Source: Clavelina lepadiformis
Lineage: Eukaryota > Chordata > Ascidiacea > Aplousobranchia > Clavelinidae
Direction of reading: 5' to 3'
Assembly: GCF_947623445.1 (NCBI RefSeq)
Contig: NC_135242.1
Location: 3,720,001 to 3,784,000, forward strand
Length of the DNA: 64,000 bases
Shown: positions 1,648 to 61,526 of the stretch, piece by piece
Position numbering within the stretch: position 1 is the first letter of the stretch
How the letters are laid out: the number at the start of each line of letters is the position of its first letter
The notes under the pieces: generated by a model
The model's input: the letters and a program-made list of their open reading frames with translations, nothing else
Told to the model about the DNA's origin: nothing
The model's database searches: none
Translations under genes and position numbers: made by a program

Positions 1648-3022
1648 TTCCCGCCCGCCCTGAAGTCCTGGTTAAAAGACTTCCTTTCCTGCTGCATGTG
1701 CCACCTGCGTATCTCTAAAATCTGGAGAAGAACCCTTGTGGTTGCAGTCCCTAAGCCGAAGAAGCCTCCAGGGGATCCAAAGAGCTACCGCCCCATCTCC
1801 CTACTCTGCATCCCCTTCAAGATCCTCGAAAGACTCATCTACGCCCGAGTCGAACCGATGATAGACCCACAGCTCCACCGGGAACAAGCTGGCTTCCGAC
1901 ACGGAAGATCAACCGTAGACCAGGTCACACTTATGACCCAAAACATCGAGCACAGCTTCTCAGCTAAGAAGAAGGCCGGCGCCGTGTTTGTTGATCTCTC
2001 GGCTGCCTACGACACCGTGTGGCACAACGGTCTTACCTGCAAGCTACTCCGTCTACTTCCTGACAGGCACATGGTCCACATGATTACGGAACTCGTACAA
2101 AATCGTAATTTCACCCTCACCACCGGCAGCGGCCCACGAAGTAGAATACGCCGACTCAGAAACGGCGTCCCACAGGGCTCCGTCTTGGTTCCCCTCCTGT
2201 ACAACATATACACCTACGACCTGCCCACCACCACCCCCAGGAAGTGTACCTATGCAGATGACCTGGCACTCCTGCATTCTGGCGGAGACTGGCAGTCGAT
2301 GGAGAGGTATCTTAGCCAAGACATGCAAACACTAACTGCATATCTCCAGAAATGGAAGCTGCAGCTCAGCAAGGCAAAGACAGTGTCGGCGGCCTTCCAC
2401 CTTAACAACAAGGAAGAACAGCGTGAGATAAGCATCAGTATTGATGGGGAACACCTGCCCTACAGCGCCGAGCCTACCTACCTCGGCGTGACCTTGGACA
2501 GGGCACTCACGTATCGTCGACACTTGAAGTCACTGCGCAATAAACTAACTGCGCGCGTCGCGACTGAAATCTAGACACCCCTTTGTGCCAGCCGCACAAC
2601 AGCTACTCAGTAGCGCAGAACACCTAGGACTAAGTGCGGCGCACTGGACGATCCACATGTGGAGCACGAAGTGGCAAAACAACACCTCCAGACTCTGTGA
2701 CTTCATAGCCGACGCCGACCCAAACCCATCAGGAATGTCCCTCGCAAGAGCTGCTTGGGTCAGGCTCAACCGCCTGCGCACCGGCGTCGGACGTTTTCGC
2801 TTAGATATGCACAAATGGGAACTGGCTCCCCCATCCGGATGCGAGTGTGGTGCCACAGAGCATACAGCAGACTACGTCATCAATGACTGCCCAATCCATC
2901 GGCCCCCACATGGTGTGCGTGGTCTGAAAAGATTGGAGGAAGATACAATCACATGGCTGATGACCTCATGCCCGGAAATCTAGTCTGGAAGTGGAAAGAA
3001 GAAACGCTCAAACGACGAAGAA
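1648..3022 (+). mobile_element. 5'-truncated, internally deleted LINE (non-LTR retrotransposon) fragment
   Basis: An open frame running from 1648 to 2574 encodes reverse transcriptase without a start codon. Visible motifs are SYRPISLL, the REQAGFRHGRSTVDQV block, VFVDLSAAYDTVW, NGVPQGSVL and the catalytic TYADDLALL. After a stop at 2572-2574 a second frame (to 2983) carries the C-terminal part, ending in a CECGATEHTADYVINDC zinc-knuckle-like motif. About 100 residues expected between the two parts are missing, so the copy has an internal deletion and a frame change. The 3' end is a short UTR with a GAAGAA-type tail (3012-3022). The 9-mer GCCAAACGG lies at both borders (1639-1647 and 3023-3031), either as a target-site duplication or because both sides belong to the minisatellite unit. 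The best guess is the Jockey/I group. It is a dead copy. Confidence 0.88.
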
Positions 3023-3031
3023 GCCAAACGG

Positions 3032-3224
3032 GCGAAACAATATGTGTGGTGACATTCCTTTGTTTTCTGTTTCTGCTGCTGTCAGCTGCTTAATGCTGTG
3101 AGTATCTATATAAATGTTATATAGTTTACGGTCACGTCTTACGTAACTAATTATATTTTAGGACTAGCAATTCTGTTTTAATAAAGCCTTAGTTACTTTT
3201 GATTTTATATCTGAGTTCAAAGGT
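3032..3224. other. Unique spacer between LINE copy and second minisatellite block
   Basis: The minisatellite unit resumes directly after the LINE (GGCGAAACAATATG), then gives way to about 180 bp of AT-rich single-copy sequence with an AATAAA at about 3180. No reading frame is recognised. Confidence 0.5.
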
Positions 3225-24900: not shown

Positions 24901-26431
24901 ACGTCACACAAATTTGTCCATAATGACGGAATCTAGACAAAATATGTCAAAGGCAATAAAAATTTTCCTTTTAGTTTCTAATTAAAGTATTAATTATTCA
25001 ATAAAAATATTATGTGGTAGCTAGGATGATTACACCTAAAGCTTTAATAATGATTTACGCACATTTTTTACAAAAAACTTTATTTTCGAGTTTTTATGTT
25101 CAAGCATTACTTTGATAAATGTTTTCTAAACAAAGAAAGTAAAAATTTACTTCAAACCGACGGTCCCTGAAAAGTTGTGAATTTGTCGTTTAAAGAAAGG
25201 AAATGGAGATAAATGAGACTGACTATACACCACTAGTTATGAGCAATATCTGTAAATTTATACTTGCTGTTCTTAAAAATTACAGCTCTTTAGTAAAATG
25301 ACTGCACAAATGTAGCAAAATCAATAACGGGAGGAGCTTCTTAAATTTTTGCTGAATGATCAGTTCATCATTAATTTTAGGAAAGTTTTAATTAAATACA
25401 TTGATGCACTCAAAATTCGTGCGTCATTATTCCGAGCATCGTTTGTAAGGCTTAACATTGTAAAATTAAATCTAAGGACATTATTTCATGGAGATTTATT
25501 ATGATTTTTAATATGATTTAATAATTTCAATATGATTTAACGTAATTTAGCATGATTTACTATAACTGATAACGTTACTTTGACGATTTAATATGACTTT
25601 TAGTCTAACATTTTTATTTTTAATTTTTAAGCTAAGGATTAAAAATTTTTAAGATTTTTGATTTAACAATCCTGGTTCATATTTACATCGGACTTTTAGC
25701 CACAAATTTCCGGCTCACCTCCCCGCCTTCGTAACAATCATCTCCGTTCCCAGATCGTTGAATTCACCCCACAGTGACTTCATCTCCAGCCTCGCTTCCA
25801 CCTTCCTCACCTTCTCGTTCTTTTGCACCGGCTCCTCTCGCACGCATGACGTCATCGACACGTCATTGGGGCTCGGCGCGTTTATAGATGACGCCATCGT
25901 GGGTTTGGTAGCGCTGTTTGTCAGTTCGTGGACGGCGTTTTCGAATTTGGAAAGTTCGGACGGGGCGTTCGGTCCAATACATTTCTGGGGTTCGTACGGA
26001 GGGGGCGAGTTGTAATGGGGGGTGGAGGACATGACAGACGAGTATGCGTCGTTCGTATTATTCCTTGGCTCCTGCTCAAGCCCATATTTTGCCGCCATGC
26101 TTTCTCCCAGAGCGTTGTAAGAGCAAGAAAGTGATGACGATTCGGAGCTTGGCTTCCTGAATTCTTCATATCGCCCCGGACTTGCCAAATCTCGTTTGTT
26201 CTCCAACTGGTAGTAACTGTTCGGATGGTAGCGGGCGTTGTAGTCGTCCGTATGACTGGTCTGTTTCCTGTGATCCAGGAGTGTGAGCTGGACTGGACTT
26301 AAGGCGGACACCATTTCCGCGCTTGAGTTTGCGGATGCTGATCCGCCGGCTCCGTGAATATCTCCGCTTCGCGGGTGCTGTGCAAGCATCGAGTTGTAAG
26401 TGTGGTGGCTCACGGCGATCCGAGTACACAT
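15965..26431 (-). CDS. Tbx1/10: Tbx1/10 T-box transcription factor, 619 aa, 7 exons
   Basis: Exons, 5' to 3' on the minus strand: 26431-25719, 22417-22301, 22114-21958, 20808-20653, 17583-17516, 16871-16699, 16440-15965. They total 1860 nt, phases agree at every junction, and introns are GT-AG. The T-box spans about residues 215-401: [122 protein letters not shown] and [19 protein letters not shown](Y/F)QPRFHV together with [13 protein letters not shown] is typical of the Tbx1/10 subfamily and unlike Tbx2/3, 4/5, 6 or 20. The long N-terminus is Ser/Asn-rich; the C-terminus is Pro/Tyr-rich. In ascidians Tbx1/10 acts in the cardiopharyngeal lineage, favouring pharyngeal muscle over heart. The start at 26431 is the first usable ATG, but the frame stays open upstream for about 80 nt, so an extra 5' exon is possible. 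Confidence 0.95.
17203..17220. repeat. (ATCT)n microsatellite
   Basis: About four and a half copies of ATCT in the Tbx1/10 intron between exons 5 and 6. Confidence 0.9.
17584..20652. other. Tbx1/10 intron 4 (3.1 kb)
   Basis: A long intron separates the AYQNHR exon from the ITQLKI exon. No exon, RNA gene or clear transposon is seen. The minus-strand frame at 19361-19651 and those around 19841-20279 have no recognisable product. Confidence 0.6.
22418..25718. other. Tbx1/10 intron 1 (3.3 kb)
   Basis: The largest intron of the gene, directly after the exon that ends within the T-box. No coding exon is recognised in it. It holds the CRE-like cluster at about 24481-24909, listed separately, and several uninformative short frames. 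Confidence 0.6.
24481..24909. promoter_or_regulatory. Cluster of CRE/ATF-like, E-box and CCAAT motifs in Tbx1/10 intron 1
   Basis: Within about 430 bp there are GACGTCAT (24515-24522), TTACGTCAC running into CCAAT (24562-24574), CACGTG (24691-24696), TGACG (about 24703), an inverted CCAAT near 24863 and a double GCGTCACGTCAC (24896-24907). ACGTCA-type hexamers are expected only rarely at this density. It is a candidate intronic enhancer. The motif matches are visible; activity is inference. Confidence 0.3.
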
Positions 26432-34487: not shown

Positions 34488-36633
34488 TTACGTCACCCAT
34501 AAATGCATGACGTTATTCCATGCCATCGGCGATTGATGGGTTACGGACAAAGTCGCCAACACTGGAACTACTTTTGCTGCGTCGCCATGGATTTCAGACG
34601 AATATTTTTCACTGACAAAATGCGTGGCCTGGCTCTCGTCAACGTGGCTCTGCGCCAGGTCAACAGCGCATTGAAAAACCTGCGCAGAAAACCAAACTAC
34701 TAAAAGTTTTCTTTAAAAGTATAGTTACTGCAGCTTTTTCTGTCTCTATAACTGTACTTATCAAAAGCGGTTATGTACCAAGGCCTTCCTACCTTGTCAA
34801 AGTGCGCAGACATAAAGCTACTAATCTCGCTAAAGATCGCCACACGTGGTGGGTTCGCGTTTATTTTTCGCTCATCGTTGTTTTGCTGAGAACTTTTGGT
34901 CGATTTTCCACTTGGAACGCCTAATAAATACCAAAATTTGGTGATTTATACGACTAATGTTCTAAGCAGCTGCTTAATGCATATAAAAAGCGGTTTATTT
35001 ATTTTAAACTGAAGCCAAATCTGTTTAAATTTTGAAACTTTTTCACATAAAACCTTAAATTTTTCCATGAAGATTCAGCAACAAAACTACTTACTCAAAT
35101 TTCCGTTTGCTACATCATAAAGATGTGCGTGACGTAATGTTGTGACAGCCAATGACAGTGAGGCAGCAGCTTTCACTGATGCTGTGTAGGAAAGGTATTT
35201 CTCGTCCAGTAACATCAGGTCTGCCAGGTAAAATGAAAGCTGGCGACACTTTTCAGTGACGTTTGATTTCTGTGCAAAAAAACAGCAGCGTTTGCCTCTA
35301 GTTAAGCTGAAAAACTGTTTCTATTTTCTCTTTAAAACAGCTGACAAAAAGTTTGGAGGGCTATCATTGTAGACCTATACTACGCTTTTTTGTATTGTTT
35401 ATATTGTTTCTGTTAAAATTGTTCTTGCAATATTGTATGTCATTAGCAAAGCAACACCTCATGAAACAAGGTAAGATACTGGTGAATGGTTGGCACCGAC
35501 AGGGCGCACTCAAAGACATTCAAAATCAATCTTTCCATCATCAACACCTCTGCCCTTGTGTACGTGTCTGCAGTGACGTAGGCGAACTCGTCGGCATCGG
35601 GCGGGTAAATTTCCTCGTATTTCGCAGCGAGAAACATACAAGTTGTCCCTGAAGATTCGCATAACTTTTATCACTTAATTGCTGCAACCTGATGAAACCA
35701 CAGATAAGTCAACGGTGTGGTCATCATTTACCAAAGTAGATTACATCACTGACCGAGTAGCTGCAGCTTTGCTCTGCTAACTGACATCTCAGACAGAAAC
35801 CGGTCGACATAGGCTACAGCCAAGTGGAGCGTTTCGTTTTGAAGTTTGTATTCATCCTGTACCTCCACTAGCCAGTCTACCAACTTCACTCGCATTGAGG
35901 AGGTGATCTCGGATTGCTTGCATAAATAATGAGCATTCGGCTTGAATCTGAGTTCATTCACCGTCATGTGTTGCAGGATGTCTGCGAGGTATTCCTCTAA
36001 AACTATTAGATCAGGATCGCTTCTTTTAACGGTCCGTAGGTAATTGTCGTCTGATTGTCTTCTTTTGTCTGACTTTTTCGAGCTTCGGGAGCGCATGAGG
36101 AAGGAATCGGGGAAGTCGTCCTCCGTCGCACTCCGGAATGAAGAATCCGACTCCGTGTCCATGCTGCTAGCGATTGTGATGTCATCGCTGTGCGTGATCG
36201 GCAAGAAGAATTTTGGCTTGTCCGGAGGAGTGGTTGATATCGATGGAGCGACGTTTAACGAAAGAGTTTTAAGTGGAACACGTTCCTGCTGATTTGACGG
36301 GCATATTGTTTGCTTAATGTAATTATCGCATTTGTCCTTTGCACTTGCCTGGATAAATGACTTGCAGGAAATGTCGCTTGTTACTGAAGTTTGACTGTAA
36401 TAGCAAGAATCGTTATTTTCGTTGTAATCGGCCACGTCCATGCTAGATTTTCCAGAGGATGGAAATTGTGGAAAAGAATTACATCTTCCATTGCAGAATG
36501 CCATACAATTTTCTTTGTTTTGGCTCAGATGCCGTTGGGATAACCACTTGTGCCCGGTCTTAGCAGCTCTGGAAGGTTGGACCCGCTTGGAGTTAGTGTC
36601 CAGCGCCCCTAGTGGTTGTCTTTCGGTGATCAT
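34488..36633 (-). CDS. CCNA: Cyclin A, about 521 aa, 5 exons
   Basis: Exons, 5' to 3' on the minus strand: 36633-35754, 35648-35458, 35269-35095, 34920-34793, 34679-34488. The N-terminus has a destruction box [10 protein letters not shown] (residues 5-14, RxxLxxxxN) and a KEN box (40-42), the signals for APC/C-driven degradation. The cyclin N-box runs through [20 protein letters not shown], the cyclin A signature [19 protein letters not shown] and [20 protein letters not shown]. The C-box includes [20 protein letters not shown] and ends around [20 protein letters not shown] followed by EKY. Cyclin A activates CDK2 and CDK1 in S phase and mitosis. The hydrophobic substrate patch reads MRVKL where most cyclins A have MRAIL. 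Exon 3/4 joining is uncertain: the strong donor GTAAGT (35094) with the acceptor before 34920 adds about 34 Ser/Asn-rich residues. An alternative in-frame pair (exon 3 to 35091, exon 4 from 34829) removes them. Confidence 0.94.
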
Positions 36634-40361: not shown

Positions 40362-43300
40362 TCATATTGGCATGAGAAACGGTAGAAGATGTGGAATCGT
40401 CCCACCCTAACAACTAATCATACATCCAAATATTGTGGAAGACGGCACTTAATGTTGTAATATGTTGCTTTGTTACTTTCCATCACCCTGTAACAAATAA
40501 ACTCAAAGCAAATGCGATTGATTTAGTTTGTGGTGACAAATCTACAGAGGTCTCGATTAAGCTACTGCGTTGTAATTATGGTTGATAAAAATTATCTTTA
40601 TTGTTGATATTTTGTATAAATTTATATCTCTTTATAAACACTTGAAGCGATCACTATTTACTGTAGTTTATACATCATTGTAAATGGTTCTTAGTTCTTA
40701 CCCTTCGAACATATGCAGGTGGTACCGGTTCAGGCGGTATAGGTTCAGTTTGAAAACTTTCATCGTCCCAATCACCGTGTGAAATCTTCTCAATTTCCTT
40801 TTCCTGAATTAGGATAGATTCGGTAAGGTATACGGAGACATGATGTGCCGCCTTAAGAAATTAAGGAGCAACGCTTTTCTTAACATGCATTATAAATGCT
40901 AATTCAACGAGTACTGAATCTGGATCTCAAACGATAAACTAGCAATGGATCAGGTTTTTGGAAATGTTTTAAAAAGTTGAGTTCATTCACAAGTCTTTTT
41001 CCTATAAAAAGATTACTGGTACTATTCATGTGTACCTCATGTTCAAGACGAGATAGCCTTTGATTTATTGATGTTGCAGATTCTGTCGCTGCTTGCTTTA
41101 TTTTCTGATAAGCAAAGAAGTTTATAAGGCAACCGTGGAACATTATGGTATTCTTTTATATGGTTTATGCGTAGAAACGTAAAGTGCCATGTACTTTCCC
41201 CTATAAATCACTTTTACTTGGGCGATGTTACTAACATATTATGTTATTGTACATGTCATTTAGATTTAAAAAATCTTACCTCAGTTTCATTGCTTGACGT
41301 GTCTTCACGTAAAGACTCCAAAGTTGAAGTCAATTCATTTATCTGGTCGAGGACGTGATTCTGAAAATTTAAAAAGTTGACTGTATTTGACAATTTACGT
41401 ATATTAACTGCTTTATATATTTCAAGACGTCTAATTTATTATTTGATTCAAACGAAAGTAAGAAACCTATTTTGCCTATAATCTACAAAGCCTTTTATTG
41501 TGTTTAAGTCTTGCTTTATCACATGAATTTATGATTGGTTAGGCTCAAGACCCTGGCAAATTATTTGAAACAGGTTTGTACTGAGCTAAAATAGCTTGTC
41601 AAGTGAAAGTCCAGCCACAGTATTAGATGACGTCATATTACAAGCAAACAAAGTTATTTGCATATAGCTCACCGTAACGTTTTCTCTAAGTTGATTGTGC
41701 TTTTCCATCCAGCTTGATCTAATAAAGTCTAGCTCACTTTTTTCAACATAATCTTCCTAATACAAAAATAAAAAAGATAGCGTCAGAAATTGTTGCTTTT
41801 TAGATGATACAATAATGTATAAAAAAAATTAGTTAACTCAGTATAGCTCGGTTTATTTTTTGTATTTTATTTTTACTAATTCTTAAAAATTCATTTTTTC
41901 TTGCTTGGTTAATCTAACTGTACTTTTACAAACTGTTTTTTTATTGGTAAATTATGGATGACATAAAAATATTAGTCACCTTAAAAAAATTCAAACTAAA
42001 TTTCAAGTCTGATATATTGCTTTTCAGCATCTCCATTTCCAATGACTTCAAAACAAAAGACAATGTAATCATTAACAAAATATACCGTTCGTATATTCCA
42101 GAGCTGAATTATAAGAGTGTTGCAAGAAACAACGGTCTTTAATTTACTCTTTACTTACTGTTTTATCAGCAAGTACCCTCTCCCTCAAGTCATCGAAGTT
42201 GGATTTCAAGAGGTTTTCGTCAACCTACATATGTTTAAAGCTGGTCTCAAACTAATGTATTTCAACTGAAATAAGTAATCTTCGATTTACTTACTTTTAA
42301 TGACGTTATTATATAGTTCAGAGTTGCGAGCCGGGCTTCATGTGAAAAGCTTCGTAATCGTAAAACTTCATAATCTTCCTGAAGAAGTTAAATAACGTTA
42401 AAATTAATCATTCAATTATGAAATCTATTCATGTATCATTTTTAAACGAGAATTTTACTGAAACGTTCGTTGCCAAGTGTTGATGAAGATCAGAGATTCT
42501 TGATCCAAGCTTGGTCACATCCTCTCTTGGGACTGAATTATTCTGAGAAAAGCAGATTAGCGACATTATTCAAGGAAGTACGGTTGCTTATTTTACAATG
42601 ACACGATTTTATTATGTAGAACTATTTTTCTACAATGCCACATTACAAGTTTTTAATAAAACCGAGATAAGTATAATTATTTGTATAAGTAAAAGTATAA
42701 CATGTAAGTATTTGATCCCTGAAAGCACTATACCTTTATATTATCCAGAGTTGAGTTGATCAATTCCGAAACAATCTTTACAAAATAAAACTTATTACAG
42801 AGTAAAAACTTTAAAACAATTTGTCTGATATTTTTAAAAAACGTTCTTGTGAAATATTATGATTCACTATTTCCTTTACTTCCCAACGTTTGCAAATTTA
42901 TGTGGAGACTTTAAGCAATTAAATGTTTAAAAATATACGCCAGCTTACTGAAGTCTGGTTTGCCACTTCTTCTTGCAGATTGTAGAACTTTTCTGAAATC
43001 GCCTTTATCTGCTCTGGCAAGTTTCTTTGCTGCAAAAGGGAAAAGGTCAATAAAAAATAATAAATCGTATTAGCTATTTAAGGTTTGTTAAGTTAATTTT
43101 ACCTCCAATGTATCAAGTTGGTAAGCAAGAGTTTGTAGAGAAGCTTGGTTCAAAACCGTGCGAAGTCTCAACAGTTCGTAATCCTACATTGGTTGAAACG
43201 TAACATTTTAATGCTTATCTTAAACTATGCTGATTTTTTGCTTTGACCCTATAAGGTAATTGATATCGTTTCGAATCTGAGGTTAATTACCGAGTTTGTG

Positions 43301-46300
43301 TTTATCCTTTGAGCGTGAAGTTCGGTTATGTTTCCCGCGATATATATCCCTGTTCTTTTATCCAAGGTATTATCCTACATTAATGACAAGAATCTTTTAC
43401 AAGACAATTTCAAAAGAAACAAATTGCATGTTGAAATGTTCAATTGATATAATAATTATGTAGCATTTATAATAAGAAAAATTATATGAAATTTATCATA
43501 ACTTTTTTCCATTTTATGAATCAATGGAATTAATTCTATTCTTACTGACTTGAAGCTCCAATAGCGTTGTGTTTATCGTTGTTAACTGATTGTCCAAACG
43601 CACAACTTTTCCTCCAAGCTCTTTCATACCAACCTGAATATTCATTTTAATAGAACTGTAAACATAGTCTATTCTATGCCAATAACATTGAAATTGCATT
43701 TGTAATGTTTTGTAGAAAAGATGTTTTCATTAGTAGATAAAAATTTCTGATAATTTGAAGCTAAAGTAATAGTTGCTTTCTATTATTATTATCTAAAGCA
43801 TGCAGGCAATTACAGAAATAAACTCTTAATTACTATTAGACATAGCACGTTTGTTATTTTACCATAATATTTTGAATTTCATTAGTTGCGTTAAGAATCA
43901 ATTCTTCGTTTTGAGATACTTGGAGTTGTAGCATGTCCCTTCCGCTCTAAATTTAGTTGAAAATGATAACATTACCAGGTGTAAAAATTACACTATTTGA
44001 TGAATCTTTATATTGACGCCGTTCAGTAAACACGGAATATAATAATAATAGTTTTAGCTTCGGGGTTTGTTTTAATCGTTGGTTTAAAATTTTTAATCAT
44101 TTCCTCATCAATATCAGTTGTACCGTTATACTTTCCTCCATTCCAGACACACGTTGATGTAAATGCCTTTCAAAATCATCTAGTGCGTCTTTTGTAGCAA
44201 AATTATTCTGGAAAAGTAACACGAACCGATCAAAATAAAGCAATTGCTTTTTAAATTGCCACCACAAAATACGAAGGTCTAGGTTCCAACAACCTGAATT
44301 TCTCGACGTATTATGTCCTCAGTCGTGGACAAGTTGTTTTTCAACGCCATTGCGGTTAGCTTAAGAATCTCAGAAATCCGCTGCAAAAGACGAATAAGGT
44401 TATGTTTGAAAGGTACAGTAGACAAACTCGTCAACTTCGTTCTTACCGTGCTGTTGTTGTTTGCTTCGTTTTTCAACGCCTGGATTTCACTTTCCAGTCT
44501 GTTGGCTTGCCTTCCGATCAAATTTTGAACATTCTGCAATGAATGAAAACTTGAAAAATAGTTTCCTGCACAAAAATACGTAAAAGAAAGATTTTGAGAG
44601 CGATGAAACTGCTGCCTGTAAATTTAATCGAGAAACGTAACTTTTTTCTCATAGACACATATCGGGATAACACCATTTTAAACTTAGCTGCAAACTTGCA
44701 ATGCTGGTAAATGTTGACATGTAAATGTTATGTTAATGCGTTATTCAGCTACGTGACCGTGTTATTAGAGGCCACCCTTTCGTAAGTGGTATTTTGATGA
44801 AATCAAGAAACTAAACTTTGCAGAATCAAAAGCGTAAACAACAGAGGCGACAATTTGGATGGGGGGGATTTATTGTATTTTATTGCACCTAACTACTAAA
44901 AGTTTTAGTCTTGTAAGTTGTAAACATTCTATCACCTGAATACGAGGTAGCGCATTGTCCGACAACCTTTTCAAGTTTCTGTTCGTGTTTGAAATCTCCT
45001 GTCTCGTGTCATCCAAATTTCCCTGAAACATATTAAATTTTGCCATTTGTCAGGAACATTTTTAACATGGTTACGTATCATATTGAAAGCAGTTAACTGG
45101 ATTCGGCTTTCGTTTACCTTTAACAAAGAGAAGTTGCAAAATTTTACCATTTTTTGTCTGTTGCAAAACGTTCAAAAGACGAATTGCAATTTTTTTTACT
45201 TGATATGCAGCTTCGGAAAGTATTATATGAAATGGCGGTGCCAGCGCAGTCTGGGATATTGAGGTGCAGCATATGACATACTACTTCGGAACACGTTTAA
45301 AAATAATTAATTTATCAATTGTTTCAATGTCATGTTATATTTTCATACTTCGTCGAGAGCCAGATTGTTAAATCAAATTCAATATGACAGGCGGCAGGGC
45401 GAAAACGCCTATTGCGTGCAGATACTTCCTTTTGTTTACGTTTGTAATTACGTCATTGGCGAGAGCAATCCAGACCTAATCAATCAAACTTGCACGCAAT
45501 GGTGATTCCAATAAAAAAGATTGCTTTCTGCTTCAGCAAATTAAGTACAGTATTACCAGCAGAGGTCCAAGTTGTGCGTCAGTATCGTTGGCTCGTATGT
45601 CATGGTGGTCCAGTCTGCTGTTGATTTCATTCATTTGTGACTGTAAATAATTGAACATAATCAGACGTTTGCTGTCACCATTGTGTTATAAAGAAGCAGA
45701 AAACCACGACGCCCTTGTTTTACCTTAAGTAAAGACAATGAATCGTTTGTGTAGGTCATCATATCTATCTTTTCTGCTTCAGCCTTATCATTGACATTCT
45801 GCACATTTCGAACAAAGTTGTGATTGCTTTCTTGTACAGTTAATTAGCATTAGAATTACGTTATCCCAAAGGAGTTGAGGTTTGTATTTTGATTTTTCCT
45901 GCTTTAGTAAAATATTGAACTGTTCCAGTAACCTTTAAGCTGCTCGCCAGCTGGCTCTCGGTAAATGAAATGAAGGAACGCAATGTCTGCAATTCTTTGT
46001 TTATTCCAAGCACTTCACGCTGTAAAACACAAAATGATAGTGAATTCCCATATCTCAATAGCTGTGAAATAGGCTTAGTTCTTTTCTTAAAGACTTTTCA
46101 CAGCTGTATGTTCAACTACCGTAGCAGTTGTCAGCACACACTGGTGTTACTATTTCCTGTTACACAAATCACAAACCAAATGTGTTCTGGGAACACATGA
46201 AAGTGTGTGTATAAATACTGTTTGTCTTACCTCAAGTTCTTTCTTGGTGTCGTTGACTGATTTAGATAATTCATTTTTAGTTAATGTCATTCGGTCATCT

Positions 46301-48056
46301 AGCACCTAAGGGTAAAAAGCTTAAATTACATTAGGTACTGGATTCCATTTTGACAACCATGAAACGAATGTTTTTCGTACGTTTCCGTCAATACGACTTC
46401 AATGAACACAACGTGATAGTGAAGATACTCACGCTCTCAAATGCGTCGAACCTCTTTTTCATTCGCTCTGAAAGTGAATTGAGTTCATCCTTATGCTGGC
46501 GGTCTTGTTCGTCCTGTTGCATACAAGCACAACGCAACTTTATAATCAAATTAAGTTTCACGGAAACTAAACTGCTATGATGCGTTATATAAAAGTTACT
46601 AAGAATCGGTTTCATACGAGTTGGAAACTGTCTATGCGGTTAATGTTTATTTTGTCATTAAGTTAGTAACTGTATGTGTAATAATAAAGTATTTACTTTT
46701 TTCAATTTCAAGATTCCAATGGTTTTGTTCATTTCAACGATGGCTGCCTGCAAAGGAACCAAACTAAATGGAAAACGAAGGTAAAAGTTGAACAGCTTTT
46801 TACCATTAAAGTTCAACTTTGCTTAAAGCGCCACAAAACTTGGTGAAATTACCTGGTAATTGGCGAGACGTTCTTCCAAATCATCGATGTCGCCGTTTGA
46901 CTTGTCGTACATTCTCTGCATGGCCGGGTTTACACTTTGACCGGACTGGTAGGGCGACACGGGGACATTAAGGAAGTAGATCACTACCGGAGTAACAAAG
47001 AAACTCATTGAATAACCTCAGAATTGAACTTTAGTGCCAAGGTAATATCTTTTATCTCGGCTAGTTAGGTGACTTGTGGCTGTATGCATGGGCTTATCTT
47101 CAAACACATTGAAATACCGTCGACTTAATTGGAATCTGGCGTGGCTTCTAGCCTTTAATAAGAATTTCAACAATCAATACTTCTCAATTTTGGAAGTTAA
47201 GATGACATTTTCTTTTCCTGACGCACCTACCCGTGCCTGTATTAGAACTCATTGGCTTGCTAGCATTGCTACAATTTGAATTGAATTGTTTCCTCATTAT
47301 TGGTGAGACAAAAACATGTGCAGAATGTTTGCAAGTTTTTTGAAAAAAATGTCTCTTTGGAATGGTGAGTGAGCACGGGCGTTTTTGTCTATTTTTGATC
47401 AAAAAATGTCAATATTTTAAACTTGATGTAAGTTAATTATCTACGTGGTCTACATTTTTTTAAACGATAATCTTGAAAATAAATTTTCGACTATCACTGC
47501 TTATAATCACTAAACATTATTGAAAGCATTTTGCTCTGGTTTGTTTAACGACAACCATTCTTCATCTGAGGTCAACGTGTTTTACACTTGGCCATCAATT
47601 TAAGTCAAGGGATTCGACACTTTGTTTAGCATAAACAAAACATCATGTGTGCTTAGTAATGAATCAATTAACTTAATCAGTGCGTTTGTACGAGACCCAT
47701 TTCTCATACTTACGTGCAAAAACAAGAATTGAGATGTACAACACACCGAGGCATATTCCTTGTACAAGTGTGCGGCTCCAGAGGCGGTTAATTTCTGAGA
47801 AAAGAAAACCGATTTTAAACCTTCCTAACCGGCCTTGTAAAACTCCTATTAACAGGCTGTTACGCATGTCTTAGTTATCTCAAATTGGCTATGGCTAACT
47901 CACGTTTCACGTGTTTCAGATTGGTATCTAACCTTGTTTTACTTTGCCGTCGTTCGGGTTGGGCATATAAAGATGTTCCATTTCTGGCTTCAAAGAATTT
48001 GTCCTTGAACCTTTTGCCAGTATGATGCTGTGTGTTAGCTTGTTCTCCTGATACTT
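40362..48056 (-). CDS. Type II membrane glycoprotein with long coiled-coil ectodomain, about 28 exons, 5' end incomplete
   Basis: Exons (minus): 48056-47904, 47794-47714, 46983-46853, 46747-46697, 46513-46433, 46305-46231, 46019-45933, 45798-45724, 45640-45557, 45022-44936, 44533-44447, 44380-44294, 44207-44124, 43946-43863, 43633-43550, 43374-43291, 43183-43103, 43029-42949, 42775-42734, 42542-42459, 42378-42295, 42224-42159, 42045-41980, 41756-41673, 41360-41280, 41104-41036, 40803-40702, 40406-40362. A basic cytoplasmic tail precedes one membrane helix (LVQGICLGVLYISILVFALI, split by a phase-1 intron), then about 620 residues of heptad-patterned helix. More than ten N-x-S/T sequons in the stalk place it outside the cell or in the lumen. 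The end is proline-rich (PIPPEPVPPAYVRR), then GGTIPHLLPFLMPI and stop. No collagen, lectin, SRCR or fibrinogen domain is seen. The architecture recalls scavenger-receptor class A stalks, but homology is not shown. The exon bearing the start ATG was not found, and an exon between 45022 and 45557 could be missing. Confidence 0.85.
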
Positions 48057-55270: not shown

Positions 55271-55861
55271 TCACGACGAGTTTGCCTGAAACATGACGTC
55301 AGAAAAATCAGTCAACAAATAACACCACGTAACGATAACAAACAATTAGTTGTTAGGAAAAGCGATCACGACTTACATCTTGCGGTATGTTGTCGACGAC
55401 CGAAGTTAGTGGCGAGCGTTTCATGCTTTCGTCAGTTGTTTTAGAAACCTCCTTATTGCCGGCTTCCTTCTCAAGTTCGGCGTGCAAGTGCCTGATGTAC
55501 TGAACAGCGCCGAGCACTATTTCGATGTTCGACGTCGGTTTTTGCTGAGTTGTTGGGATGATGTCGCTCAGTTTTCGATACAAATATCTGAATATCACAA
55601 AACAAAACTGCCTAATATTTTCTTTAATGCTATCACTATTGAAACAACATGGTCTAGGTGTGTGTAAGTTCCACCATTAAAATATTTCTAACGGTTTACA
55701 GTAGAAGATAAGTCTTACTTGAGCTCGTCTTTTTCCGAACTGAAGCTTTCACTTTCCTTCAATGTGGCCTGGGATGGCAACCCAGGTCGATAGGTCTTGT
55801 TGGTGGTCAAGTATGGGGCACACCTCGCCACTGTCGACAGCGACTTTACAACTTTGACCAT
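55271..55861 (-). CDS. Id: Id-like helix-loop-helix protein, 122 aa, 3 exons
   Basis: Exons 55861-55719, 55587-55377 and 55285-55271 on the minus strand join in frame (369 nt), ending A-N-S-S-stop. The HLH runs from about residue 47 to 90: YLYRKLSDIIPTTQQKP as helix 1 and loop, SNIEIVLGAVQYIRHLHAEL as helix 2. The segment before helix 1 (SSEKDELK) is acidic and lacks the basic DNA-binding region. This, with the short length, is the mark of Id proteins, which sequester E proteins and block DNA binding by bHLH factors. The intron inside the DELK codon and the 15-nt last exon are supported by consensus splice sites (CAAGAT|GTAAGT, TTTCAG|GCAAAC), but the last exon is short enough to be uncertain. 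The ATG at 55861 is preferred; the frame upstream has no ATG. Confidence 0.8.
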
Positions 55862-60419: not shown

Positions 60420-61526
60420 ATGGAGGAAACAAAAGTTGAATCAACCCGTTCTGATGACGATGACGTTGTAAAAGCAGGAGAGTCAGCAATAAACTTTTTG
60501 CAAAATATTGACCAGGAAGAACTCTTAATGTGCATTTTTAAGGACGACTTGGTCACCGTATCGGAGGACGGCAAATCAATTGGAGAGTTTGTGGCAAGTG
60601 TCGAAAAAGCGACTAAATCGGGAGAGATTTGCTTTCTAGTCCATGCGAGTAGCCAAGGAAAAGTTGAGGATATTCCAATGGGCACAAGCCTGCAGACTTA
60701 TCTTAACTCTAAAGATCTTTCGTTGGTCTACCAGGAGCATTATGAATACGTCAGAGTACCGGGACACGAACTTGAAAAACGTACAGAGATGGACATCGAT
60801 CGTGAAACTGGACAATTAACTGTAAAGAGACAGGTTACGCAAGGTGACGAGATCCGAAAATCCACTCATCGCTTTCCCAAAGAACACCTTATTGGTTTTA
60901 TCACCGAAGGATCTAACTTGCTTTTGCAGAGATTGCTGGTGCGATGTGGAATCCATGAAGAGATGGATTTTGTAACTCTCGACTCAGAATCAGGACACAT
61001 AGTCCCGATGACGTACAAGCCGCTACCAGAAAGGAAACAGCAAGTCGGGAAGAAGGAACTCACTGTAAGCGGCATAGAACGCTGTGTGGTATCCAACGCC
61101 GACCTTCCGTACACGTGGCAGTCTTATTTCATGGAAGATGGTCACCTGACTATGAGAGTTCAAGTGGGTTCGCCGGCCATCGTGACGTTGGAGAAGGTGC
61201 CACGCATGGTTGAACGCGAAGAAAGTGAAGAGAAACCGATCTTCGGAAAACAGCCGTTGGTTTGGGAGCAGGATATGGAAATGAACTCCAGATTTCTTCA
61301 AAGGAAAGAGGAACTGGTTGCCGGACACGAAAGATACCTCCGCGAGCACCCCGAAGCCACGGCACTTCTGGCGGATTTCTTCCAGTTCTTGCTTCTTCGT
61401 CGGCCTCGGGACGTTGTCGGATTCGCCGCGGACTTTTTCTCCACTTTCTCCAACTCGCTTCCCGAAGCATCTCCCTACAAACACTCTGCGAACGAGGCAG
61501 AAACTGAACCCTTATCCAACCAATGA
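60420..61526 (+). CDS. CATIP: CATIP, ciliogenesis-associated TTC17-interacting protein, 368 aa, intronless
   Basis: A single uninterrupted frame with a clean start (AATTATGGAGG) encodes a protein close to the usual CATIP length. Recognisable parts are SGEICFLVHASSQGKVEDIP, MGTSLQTYLNSKDLSLVYQE, YEYVRVPGHELEKRTEM and CVVSNADLPYTWQSYFMEDG. The C-terminal helix HPEATALLADFFQFLLLRRP with DVVGFAADFF resembles the RIIa/Dpy-30 docking fold (about residues 315-345). In vertebrates CATIP binds TTC17 and promotes actin polymerisation needed for cilium formation. The lack of introns contrasts with the many-exon genes around it, so an ancestral retroposition is possible, though no poly(A) tract is seen. 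Overlapping antisense frames here are shadows. Confidence 0.93.
   Translation: MEETKVESTRSDDDDVVKAGESAINFLQNIDQEELLMCIFKDDLVTVSEDGKSIGEFVASVEKATKSGEICFLVHASSQGKVEDIPMGTSLQTYLNSKDLSLVYQEHYEYVRVPGHELEKRTEMDIDRETGQLTVKRQVTQGDEIRKSTHRFPKEHLIGFITEGSNLLLQRLLVRCGIHEEMDFVTLDSESGHIVPMTYKPLPERKQQVGKKELTVSGIERCVVSNADLPYTWQSYFMEDGHLTMRVQVGSPAIVTLEKVPRMVEREESEEKPIFGKQPLVWEQDMEMNSRFLQRKEELVAGHERYLREHPEATALLADFFQFLLLRRPRDVVGFAADFFSTFSNSLPEASPYKHSANEAETEPLSNQ

Follow-up and report, generated by a model that had tools for sequence, protein, structure and literature searches.

The stretch of Clavelina lepadiformis DNA analysed here (NC_135242.1, positions 3,720,001 to 3,784,000; 64,000 nucleotides, hereafter the window) carries on its minus strand a gene, gene A, that encodes a protein with a single transmembrane (TM) segment and a long stalk built from many short exons. 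The coding model has 27 exons, running from 47981 to 40675, and 725 residues, arranged as a short N-terminus, one TM helix and a 596-residue stalk without Cys, with no recognisable head. A shorter paralog, gene B (C3:3708595-3714052, plus strand; 16 exons, 432 residues), is convergent with gene A, approximately 47 kb apart. Coordinates of gene A features are window positions, and C3 coordinates are contig positions.

All 23 stalk exons of gene A (exons 4-26) have phase 0 on both sides and are flanked by AG and GT in the model. Their lengths are 84 nt (eight exons), 81 and 87 nt (four each), 75 and 66 nt (two each), and 69, 51 and 42 nt (one each); 16/23 thus fall at 81-87 nt, and 9/23 are multiples of 21 nt, corresponding to whole heptads. 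The first-pass annotation, made from the letters of this DNA, had counted 17 stalk exons of 81, 84 or 87 nt, a figure that is reached only if the 81-nt TM exon (phase 1-1) is included. It had also described all exons as symmetric phase 0, which holds throughout the stalk and fails for the first three coding exons (phases 0-1, 1-1 and 1-0). Introns measure 66-697 nt (first model version). Stalk statistics and the searches up to and including the whole-genome search with the gene A protein used a 736-residue version of gene A, with a stalk identical to that of the 725-residue version.

The exon chain of gene A is real. A generic splice-site chain search, blind to gene A (hereafter the mechanical chain), found a phase-0 chain of 22 exons at this position. 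It scored 87.9, whereas 100 resamples from a first-order Markov model averaged 3.0 and never exceeded 22.4, and the plus strand gave 2.0; the chain proposed in the first-pass annotation is thereby confirmed. Twenty of the 22 exons are identical to model stalk exons and the other two are truncated versions of exons 3 and 27; three of the 23 stalk exons (15, 19 and 20) were missed. With a stricter setting, seven exons remain (score 18.8; resample maximum 4.9). When 121 kb were scanned on both strands in 72 half-overlapping tiles, the six best tiles all overlapped gene A or gene B, and the next scored 21.4. The features of gene A are as follows.

47933..47981, minus: coding exon 1, 49 nt, with ATG and short N-terminus (MEHLYMPNPNDGKVKQ), ends in phase 1; gene B exon 1 is also 49 nt, 50% identical
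47714..47794, minus: coding exon 2, 81 nt, phase 1-1, most of the TM helix; gene B exon 2 is also 81 nt
46853..46983, minus: coding exon 3, 131 nt, phase 1-0, end of the TM helix and conserved juxtamembrane segment (IYFLNVPVSPYQSGQ); acceptor chosen by hand; same site and phase in gene B
46697..46747, minus: stalk exon 4, 51 nt, phase 0, in mechanical chain; 51 nt in gene B as well
46433..46513, minus: stalk exon 5, 81 nt, in mechanical chain
46231..46305, minus: stalk exon 6, 75 nt, in mechanical chain
45933..46019, minus: stalk exon 7, 87 nt, in mechanical chain
45724..45798, minus: stalk exon 8, 75 nt, in mechanical chain
45557..45640, minus: stalk exon 9, 84 nt, in mechanical chain; likely counterpart of gene B exon 6, the pair score alone not being significant
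44936..45022, minus: stalk exon 10, 87 nt, in mechanical chain; counterpart of gene B exon 7
44447..44533, minus: stalk exon 11, 87 nt, in mechanical chain
44294..44380, minus: stalk exon 12, 87 nt, in mechanical chain
44124..44207, minus: stalk exon 13, 84 nt, in mechanical chain
43863..43946, minus: stalk exon 14, 84 nt, in mechanical chain
43550..43633, minus: stalk exon 15, 84 nt, absent from mechanical chain; clearest single-exon heptad register
43291..43374, minus: stalk exon 16, 84 nt, in mechanical chain
43103..43183, minus: stalk exon 17, 81 nt, in mechanical chain; duplicate of exon 21 and counterpart of gene B exon 11
42949..43029, minus: stalk exon 18, 81 nt, in mechanical chain
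42734..42775, minus: stalk exon 19, 42 nt, absent from mechanical chain
42459..42542, minus: stalk exon 20, 84 nt, absent from mechanical chain; donor shifted by hand from 42465 to 42459
42295..42378, minus: stalk exon 21, 84 nt, in mechanical chain; duplicate of exon 17
42159..42224, minus: stalk exon 22, 66 nt, in mechanical chain
41980..42045, minus: stalk exon 23, 66 nt, in mechanical chain
41673..41756, minus: stalk exon 24, 84 nt, in mechanical chain
41280..41360, minus: stalk exon 25, 81 nt, in mechanical chain
41036..41104, minus: stalk exon 26, 69 nt, in mechanical chain
40675..40803, minus: terminal exon 27 with stop, an acidic, proline-rich tail ending in PPAYVRRVRTKNHLQ; splicing could continue from a usable donor at 40702
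40597..40602, minus: poly(A) signal AATAAA, ~70 nt past the stop

An alternative acceptor of exon 3 at 47016 was rejected: its hydrophobic stretch is broken and contains an arginine, and the site scores -6.6, versus 1.6 for 46983, which was later matched by splice site and phase in gene B. For the TM exon, a reading frame suited to a phase-0 chain proved wrong and was dropped. Upstream of the exon 3 acceptor, an ATG at ~47008 (minus strand), in frame with exon 3 and followed by a hydrophobic stretch, is a possible alternative start that would supply a different N-terminal anchor. No head domain or extra exons 3' of the stop were evident in the chain search and the list of open frames, which were not scanned against families.

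Gene B and the shared membrane anchor

The gene A protein, searched against the complete genome of 209 Mb in 95 contigs, gave 27 matches, of which 26 are pieces of gene A and one lies elsewhere, at C3:3709857-3710006 (plus strand, 48% identical), ~10 kb before the window. The model of gene B at this position has a stalk of 12 phase-0 exons (324 residues; lengths 51-90 nt). The mechanical chain there comprises 15 exons and holds 11 of the 12 model stalk exons unchanged, the remaining one having another donor in the model; one 108-nt exon of the mechanical chain was left out.

The two genes share the same anchor exon for exon. Exons 1-4 measure 49, 81, 131 and 51 nt with equal phases in both, and the first 104 residues align without gaps (44/104 identical). 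Identity rises to 16/20 over the first 20 residues of exon 3, and the best conserved part is a juxtamembrane segment, named here by its sequence ALIYFLN[V/I]PVSPYQSGQ, that no family library used recognises. The traits found in both members are 5' exons of 49-81-131-51 nt, a TM helix with one Cys, the segment ALIYFLNxPVSPYQSGQ, and a Cys-free stalk of phase-0 exons.

Beyond the anchor, the best exon pairs are A10-B7 and A17 or A21-B11 (familywise p 0.003 each), with A9-B6 being weaker (0.33). The collinear chain of A and B exons scores 144, against maxima of 141 for order shuffles (n=1000) and 88 for residue shuffles (n=300). It matches B4 to A5, whereas length and position favour A4. The interval A10-A17 spans 170 residues and six exons, and B7-B11 spans 86 residues and three exons, a difference of 84, or 3 x 28, residues; with A21 as the anchor the difference is 180 residues, and A4-A9 and B4-B6 differ by 80.

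The gene B protein gave 18 matches, 16 in gene B itself, one in gene A and one very weak (C1, E 2.7, 25%). Because the searches with both proteins found no third member in the 209-Mb genome, save for this weak stretch on C1, the family has two members at the search sensitivity used. Similar genes may be hidden, since helical-repeat exons of ~28 codons easily escape similarity searches. A single uninterrupted frame in the window (2968-3081, plus strand) shows 41% likeness (E 0.14) to the N-terminus and TM segment of gene B, probably by chance.

The hydropathy profile of the gene A protein has one Kyte-Doolittle peak, 2.71 over 19 residues (30-48), and nothing above 0.46 past residue 90. The only Cys in each protein is the aligned C31 within the TM helix, and both stalks are Cys-free. 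There are 17 N-glycosylation sequons in gene A, all in the stalk, where 9.0 are expected (p 0.004), and 16/17 lie off the a/d core. The stalk of gene B has nine, with 4.2 expected (p 0.017), and exon 3 contributes a tenth; taken together, 25 of the 26 stalk sequons of the two proteins lie outside a/d positions. We predict a type II topology because the single TM segment lies near a basic N-terminus and the sequons follow it. The anchor and the more than ten sequons reported in the first-pass annotation are therefore borne out, the orientation being the part that leans on basic residues and sequons.

The same annotation had seen no terminal binding domain, in agreement with a Pfam scan in which neither protein matched any family at its curated cut-off. 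The best matches below cut-off were to DUF1664 (E 0.0035 for A, 0.0004 for B), followed in gene B by several weakly scoring coiled-coil families, among them Fib_alpha and Laminin_II. Searches of the PDB gave nothing credible, either with the whole gene A protein (one chain at E 3.4) or with a two-sequence profile of the first 104 residues (eight chains at E 0.02-0.91, mostly coiled-coil parts). As judged from these searches, the gene pair appears to belong to no recognised family.

Periodicity and exon boundaries of the stalk

The gene A stalk has a heptad-type periodicity. Its local hydrophobic power at period 3.5 exceeds that of shuffles by 6.9-8.4 standard deviations, and a heptad path with penalised breaks, found by dynamic programming, reaches z 9.9, with z 8.8 for the stalk of gene B. 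The strongest hydrophobic autocorrelation is seen at lags 7, 11 and 18, and an amphipathic helix in which heptads and hendecads are mixed describes the stalk. A COILS-type score, computed with a reconstructed matrix and with tropomyosin, myoglobin and lysozyme as controls, has a mean of 1.31 over the gene A stalk, above all of 100 shuffles (maximum 1.22).

Exon boundaries are anchored to the heptad; the anchoring is real, and not strict. Hydrophobic residues indexed from the exon start are unevenly distributed in gene A (p 0.001-0.003 under four nulls), and 15 of the 22 junctions are preceded by a hydrophobic residue at position -2. When the exons of gene A were scored singly, 14/23 began at heptad position f, a number that none of 3000 random-window sets reached in any register. 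With f fixed beforehand, 5 of the 12 gene B stalk exons begin at this position, where 1.6 are expected (p 0.014); at the junctions of gene B, position -2 is hydrophobic in 7/11 and position -1 in 0/11.

A proposed membrane rod of variable exon number and its alternatives

We propose, with a probability of roughly 0.7, that gene A encodes a single-pass type II protein with a Cys-free, N-glycosylated, mostly helical and self-associating rod that has been lengthened or shortened exon by exon. The short N-terminus would lie in the cytosol and one helix would cross the membrane, from which the rod of ~596 residues, glycosylated and self-associating, would extend into a luminal space or the cell exterior. 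An unbroken rod would measure ~88 nm, at 0.1485 nm per residue. Without a recognised head, the rod, its sugars and the conserved juxtamembrane segment may act as a spacer or tether. The stalk is coded by phase-0 exons, mostly of 27-29 codons, with boundaries tending to one heptad position. Changes in its length exon by exon are suggested because the models of genes A and B differ in the number of stalk exons (23 versus 12).

Several observations weigh against this proposal. Both gene models include splice sites chosen by hand. The local periodicity maximum of the gene A stalk lies at 3.6-3.67, not 3.5, and the register path requires 15 breaks over 596 residues. The COILS-type score reaches P 0.5 over 24% (28-residue window) or 36% (21-residue window) of the gene A stalk, whereas tropomyosin passes over 97-100% and myoglobin and lysozyme over 0%; the 24% scarcely exceeds the best of 100 shuffles (23.7%; shuffle average 8% with window 28). 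With 24-36% at P 0.5 and 15 breaks, heptads do not run along the whole gene A rod as in tropomyosin, and the coiled-coil check, which the first-pass annotation had named as a possible refutation, gives a mixed outcome.

Among the stalk exons, 17 and 21 are the sole clear internal duplicates, the pair 11/25 being borderline (familywise p 0.035), and the all-pairs mean score is 18.2, versus 17.3 in shuffles that keep the hydrophobic pattern. Duplication as the origin of every stalk exon was rejected, all other pairs being indistinguishable from such shuffles. The introns around exons 16-18 and 20-22 show no likeness.

In the aligned codons of A and B the other two frames contain 10-17 stops. The proportions of nonsynonymous and synonymous differences (pN and pS) are 0.37 and 0.74 over exons 1-4 (104 codons), and 0.40 and 0.76 when pooled with three aligned stalk exon pairs (189 codons; 73/189 residues shared); pS has reached saturation, and protein likeness guided the choice of three among the seven pooled pairs, which lowers pN, so that constraint is evident and no pN/pS ratio is worth quoting.

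The idea that an 84-nt exon, being four heptads, makes exon gain or loss safe for the register, put forward in the first-pass annotation, is not supported in that form. Single-exon skips in gene A keep strict register in 7 of 21 cases, where random windows matched in length do so in 25% (p 0.27), and of all possible skip joins 77/231 keep it. Junction scores after a skip are no better than after random deletions (p 0.205). Just 8/23 stalk exons of gene A are exactly four heptads long, and 2/12 of gene B are multiples of 21 nt; keeping register through an 84-nt length holds for some exons only.

These results bear on the alternatives. Short phase-0 exons might be the relic of an ancient exon duplication in a filamentous protein, with lengths and boundary register structurally meaningless today. 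The exon 17/21 duplication has an equivalent in gene B, exon lengths drift in gene B (78 and 90 nt), and the skip test is close to chance, all as a relic would have it; the boundary register, however, is retained in both genes although the aligned exons share just 73/189 residues. We regard a relic as possible, at well under even odds.

Alternatively, the protein could be a luminal Golgi or endoplasmic reticulum coiled-coil protein with the same topology, acting within the secretory pathway rather than at the cell surface. An N-terminal anchor with a helical rod suits both locations, and the lack of a recognised head domain speaks for this reading. Nothing observed decides between the two, the 26 stalk sequons of A and B being compatible with either place, and we consider it somewhat unlikely.

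Cells might also, as the first-pass annotation suggested, adjust the rod by alternative splicing, skipping or including stalk exons to give different rod lengths. Since 23/23 stalk exons are in phase 0, any skip preserves the reading frame, and the anchored boundaries and the different stalk exon numbers of A and B fit this idea; the near-chance retention of register (7/21, p 0.27) and the unremarkable post-skip junctions (p 0.205) argue against it and make it, as read from the gene models, unlikely. Kinship with the class A scavenger receptors, the collagen and SRCR parts having been lost, is highly improbable, despite a similar general layout (N-terminal anchor, helical stalk with sequons) and a putative short likeness to the MSR1 coil: the class A profile PF03523, a check suggested in the first-pass annotation, reveals no link, as it does not match the gene A protein and gives six weak matches genome-wide, the best at E 0.15, all of them below cut-off and on contigs other than that of gene A, and the window has no Gly-X-Y tract of at least five triplets in six frames.

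The surroundings of gene A contain several recognisable frames. The next recognised gene downstream of it is marked by a cyclin N-terminal domain frame (35746-36633, minus strand; E 1.4e-23). An RVT_1 reverse transcriptase frame at 1696-2574 (plus strand; E 2.6e-36) is probably part of a retroelement. The end of a frame at 25715-26431 (minus strand) aligns with positions 1-26 of the T-box profile at E 3e-5, narrowly short of the cut-off, and is probably the edge of a T-box exon. The second half of a helix-loop-helix domain lies in a frame at 55356-55676 (minus strand; E 1.2e-5), and a CATIP_N frame (ciliogenesis-associated TTC17-interacting protein) at 60420-61526 (plus strand; E 1.2e-78). Genome-wide, a 16-mer of the Ciona spliced leader has 1483 exact copies (836 + 647), and its reversed control has none, which supports the tunicate origin implied in the first-pass annotation; a COX1 family search gave nothing. 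Many of the listed copies on contig C6, at ~12139467-12206206 and beyond, lie 745 bp apart, which looks like a tandem array of spliced-leader RNA genes.

Comparison with known systems

In the open-access literature we found no recognisable account of exon-quantised coiled-coil stalks. By layout, the closest precedent is the stalk of CD23, whose repeated exons measure 63 nt (21 residues) and of which exon-skipped forms are known. CD23 (FCER2), the low-affinity IgE receptor, is a type II membrane protein with an alpha-helical coiled-coil stalk (PMC7759531, PMC6791321). Gene A, with its predicted type II topology, would resemble CD23 in this arrangement; of a heptad stalk coded by repeated in-phase exons it shows the in-phase exons and the heptad-type periodicity, but a partial COILS-type score and one clear exon duplication. 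In contrast to CD23, which has a C-type lectin head, Pfam recognises none in A or B, gene A has 23 stalk exons of mostly 27-29 codons, and we found no sequence relation.

The class A scavenger receptors (MSR1, SCARA3, SCARA5 and COLEC12) have a type II anchor and a glycosylated coil by the membrane, and a collagen tract is not present in every member. The predicted gene A protein would share the anchor and the glycosylated membrane-proximal coil, and differs in that no collagen tract, SRCR or lectin domain is recognised and PF03523 does not match. The membrane-associated (MACIT) collagens XIII, XXIII and XXV are type II membrane rods with a largely collagenous ectodomain (PMC4678570). Gene A would be like them in being a type II membrane rod, and unlike them in the lack of any Gly-X-Y tract in the window.

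Membrane rods of set length act as spacers for cells, receptors and the layers of the glycocalyx, and the encoding of such lengths in the genome is known mostly from collagen exons. The 54-nt exons of fibrillar collagens are symmetric and quantise a structural repeat, so that exon number sets rod length. Genes A and B likewise quantise a structural repeat by symmetric exons; unlike in collagen, their repeats are alpha-helical and not Gly-X-Y, and their lengths are looser (42-87 nt in A, 51-90 nt in B). Having anchors that agree in every exon and rods of different exon number, the pair offers a natural test of exon count against rod length and of boundary against heptad. We speculate, tentatively and with more doubt than confidence, that the two genes represent a family of tunicate membrane rods without heads. 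Rod length would be set by how many exon cassettes, each of about four heptads and bounded at one heptad position, a gene contains, and the family would evolve by gain or loss of whole cassettes and perhaps be tuned by splicing. Such a family would be an alpha-helical counterpart of the 54-nt exon rule of collagen.

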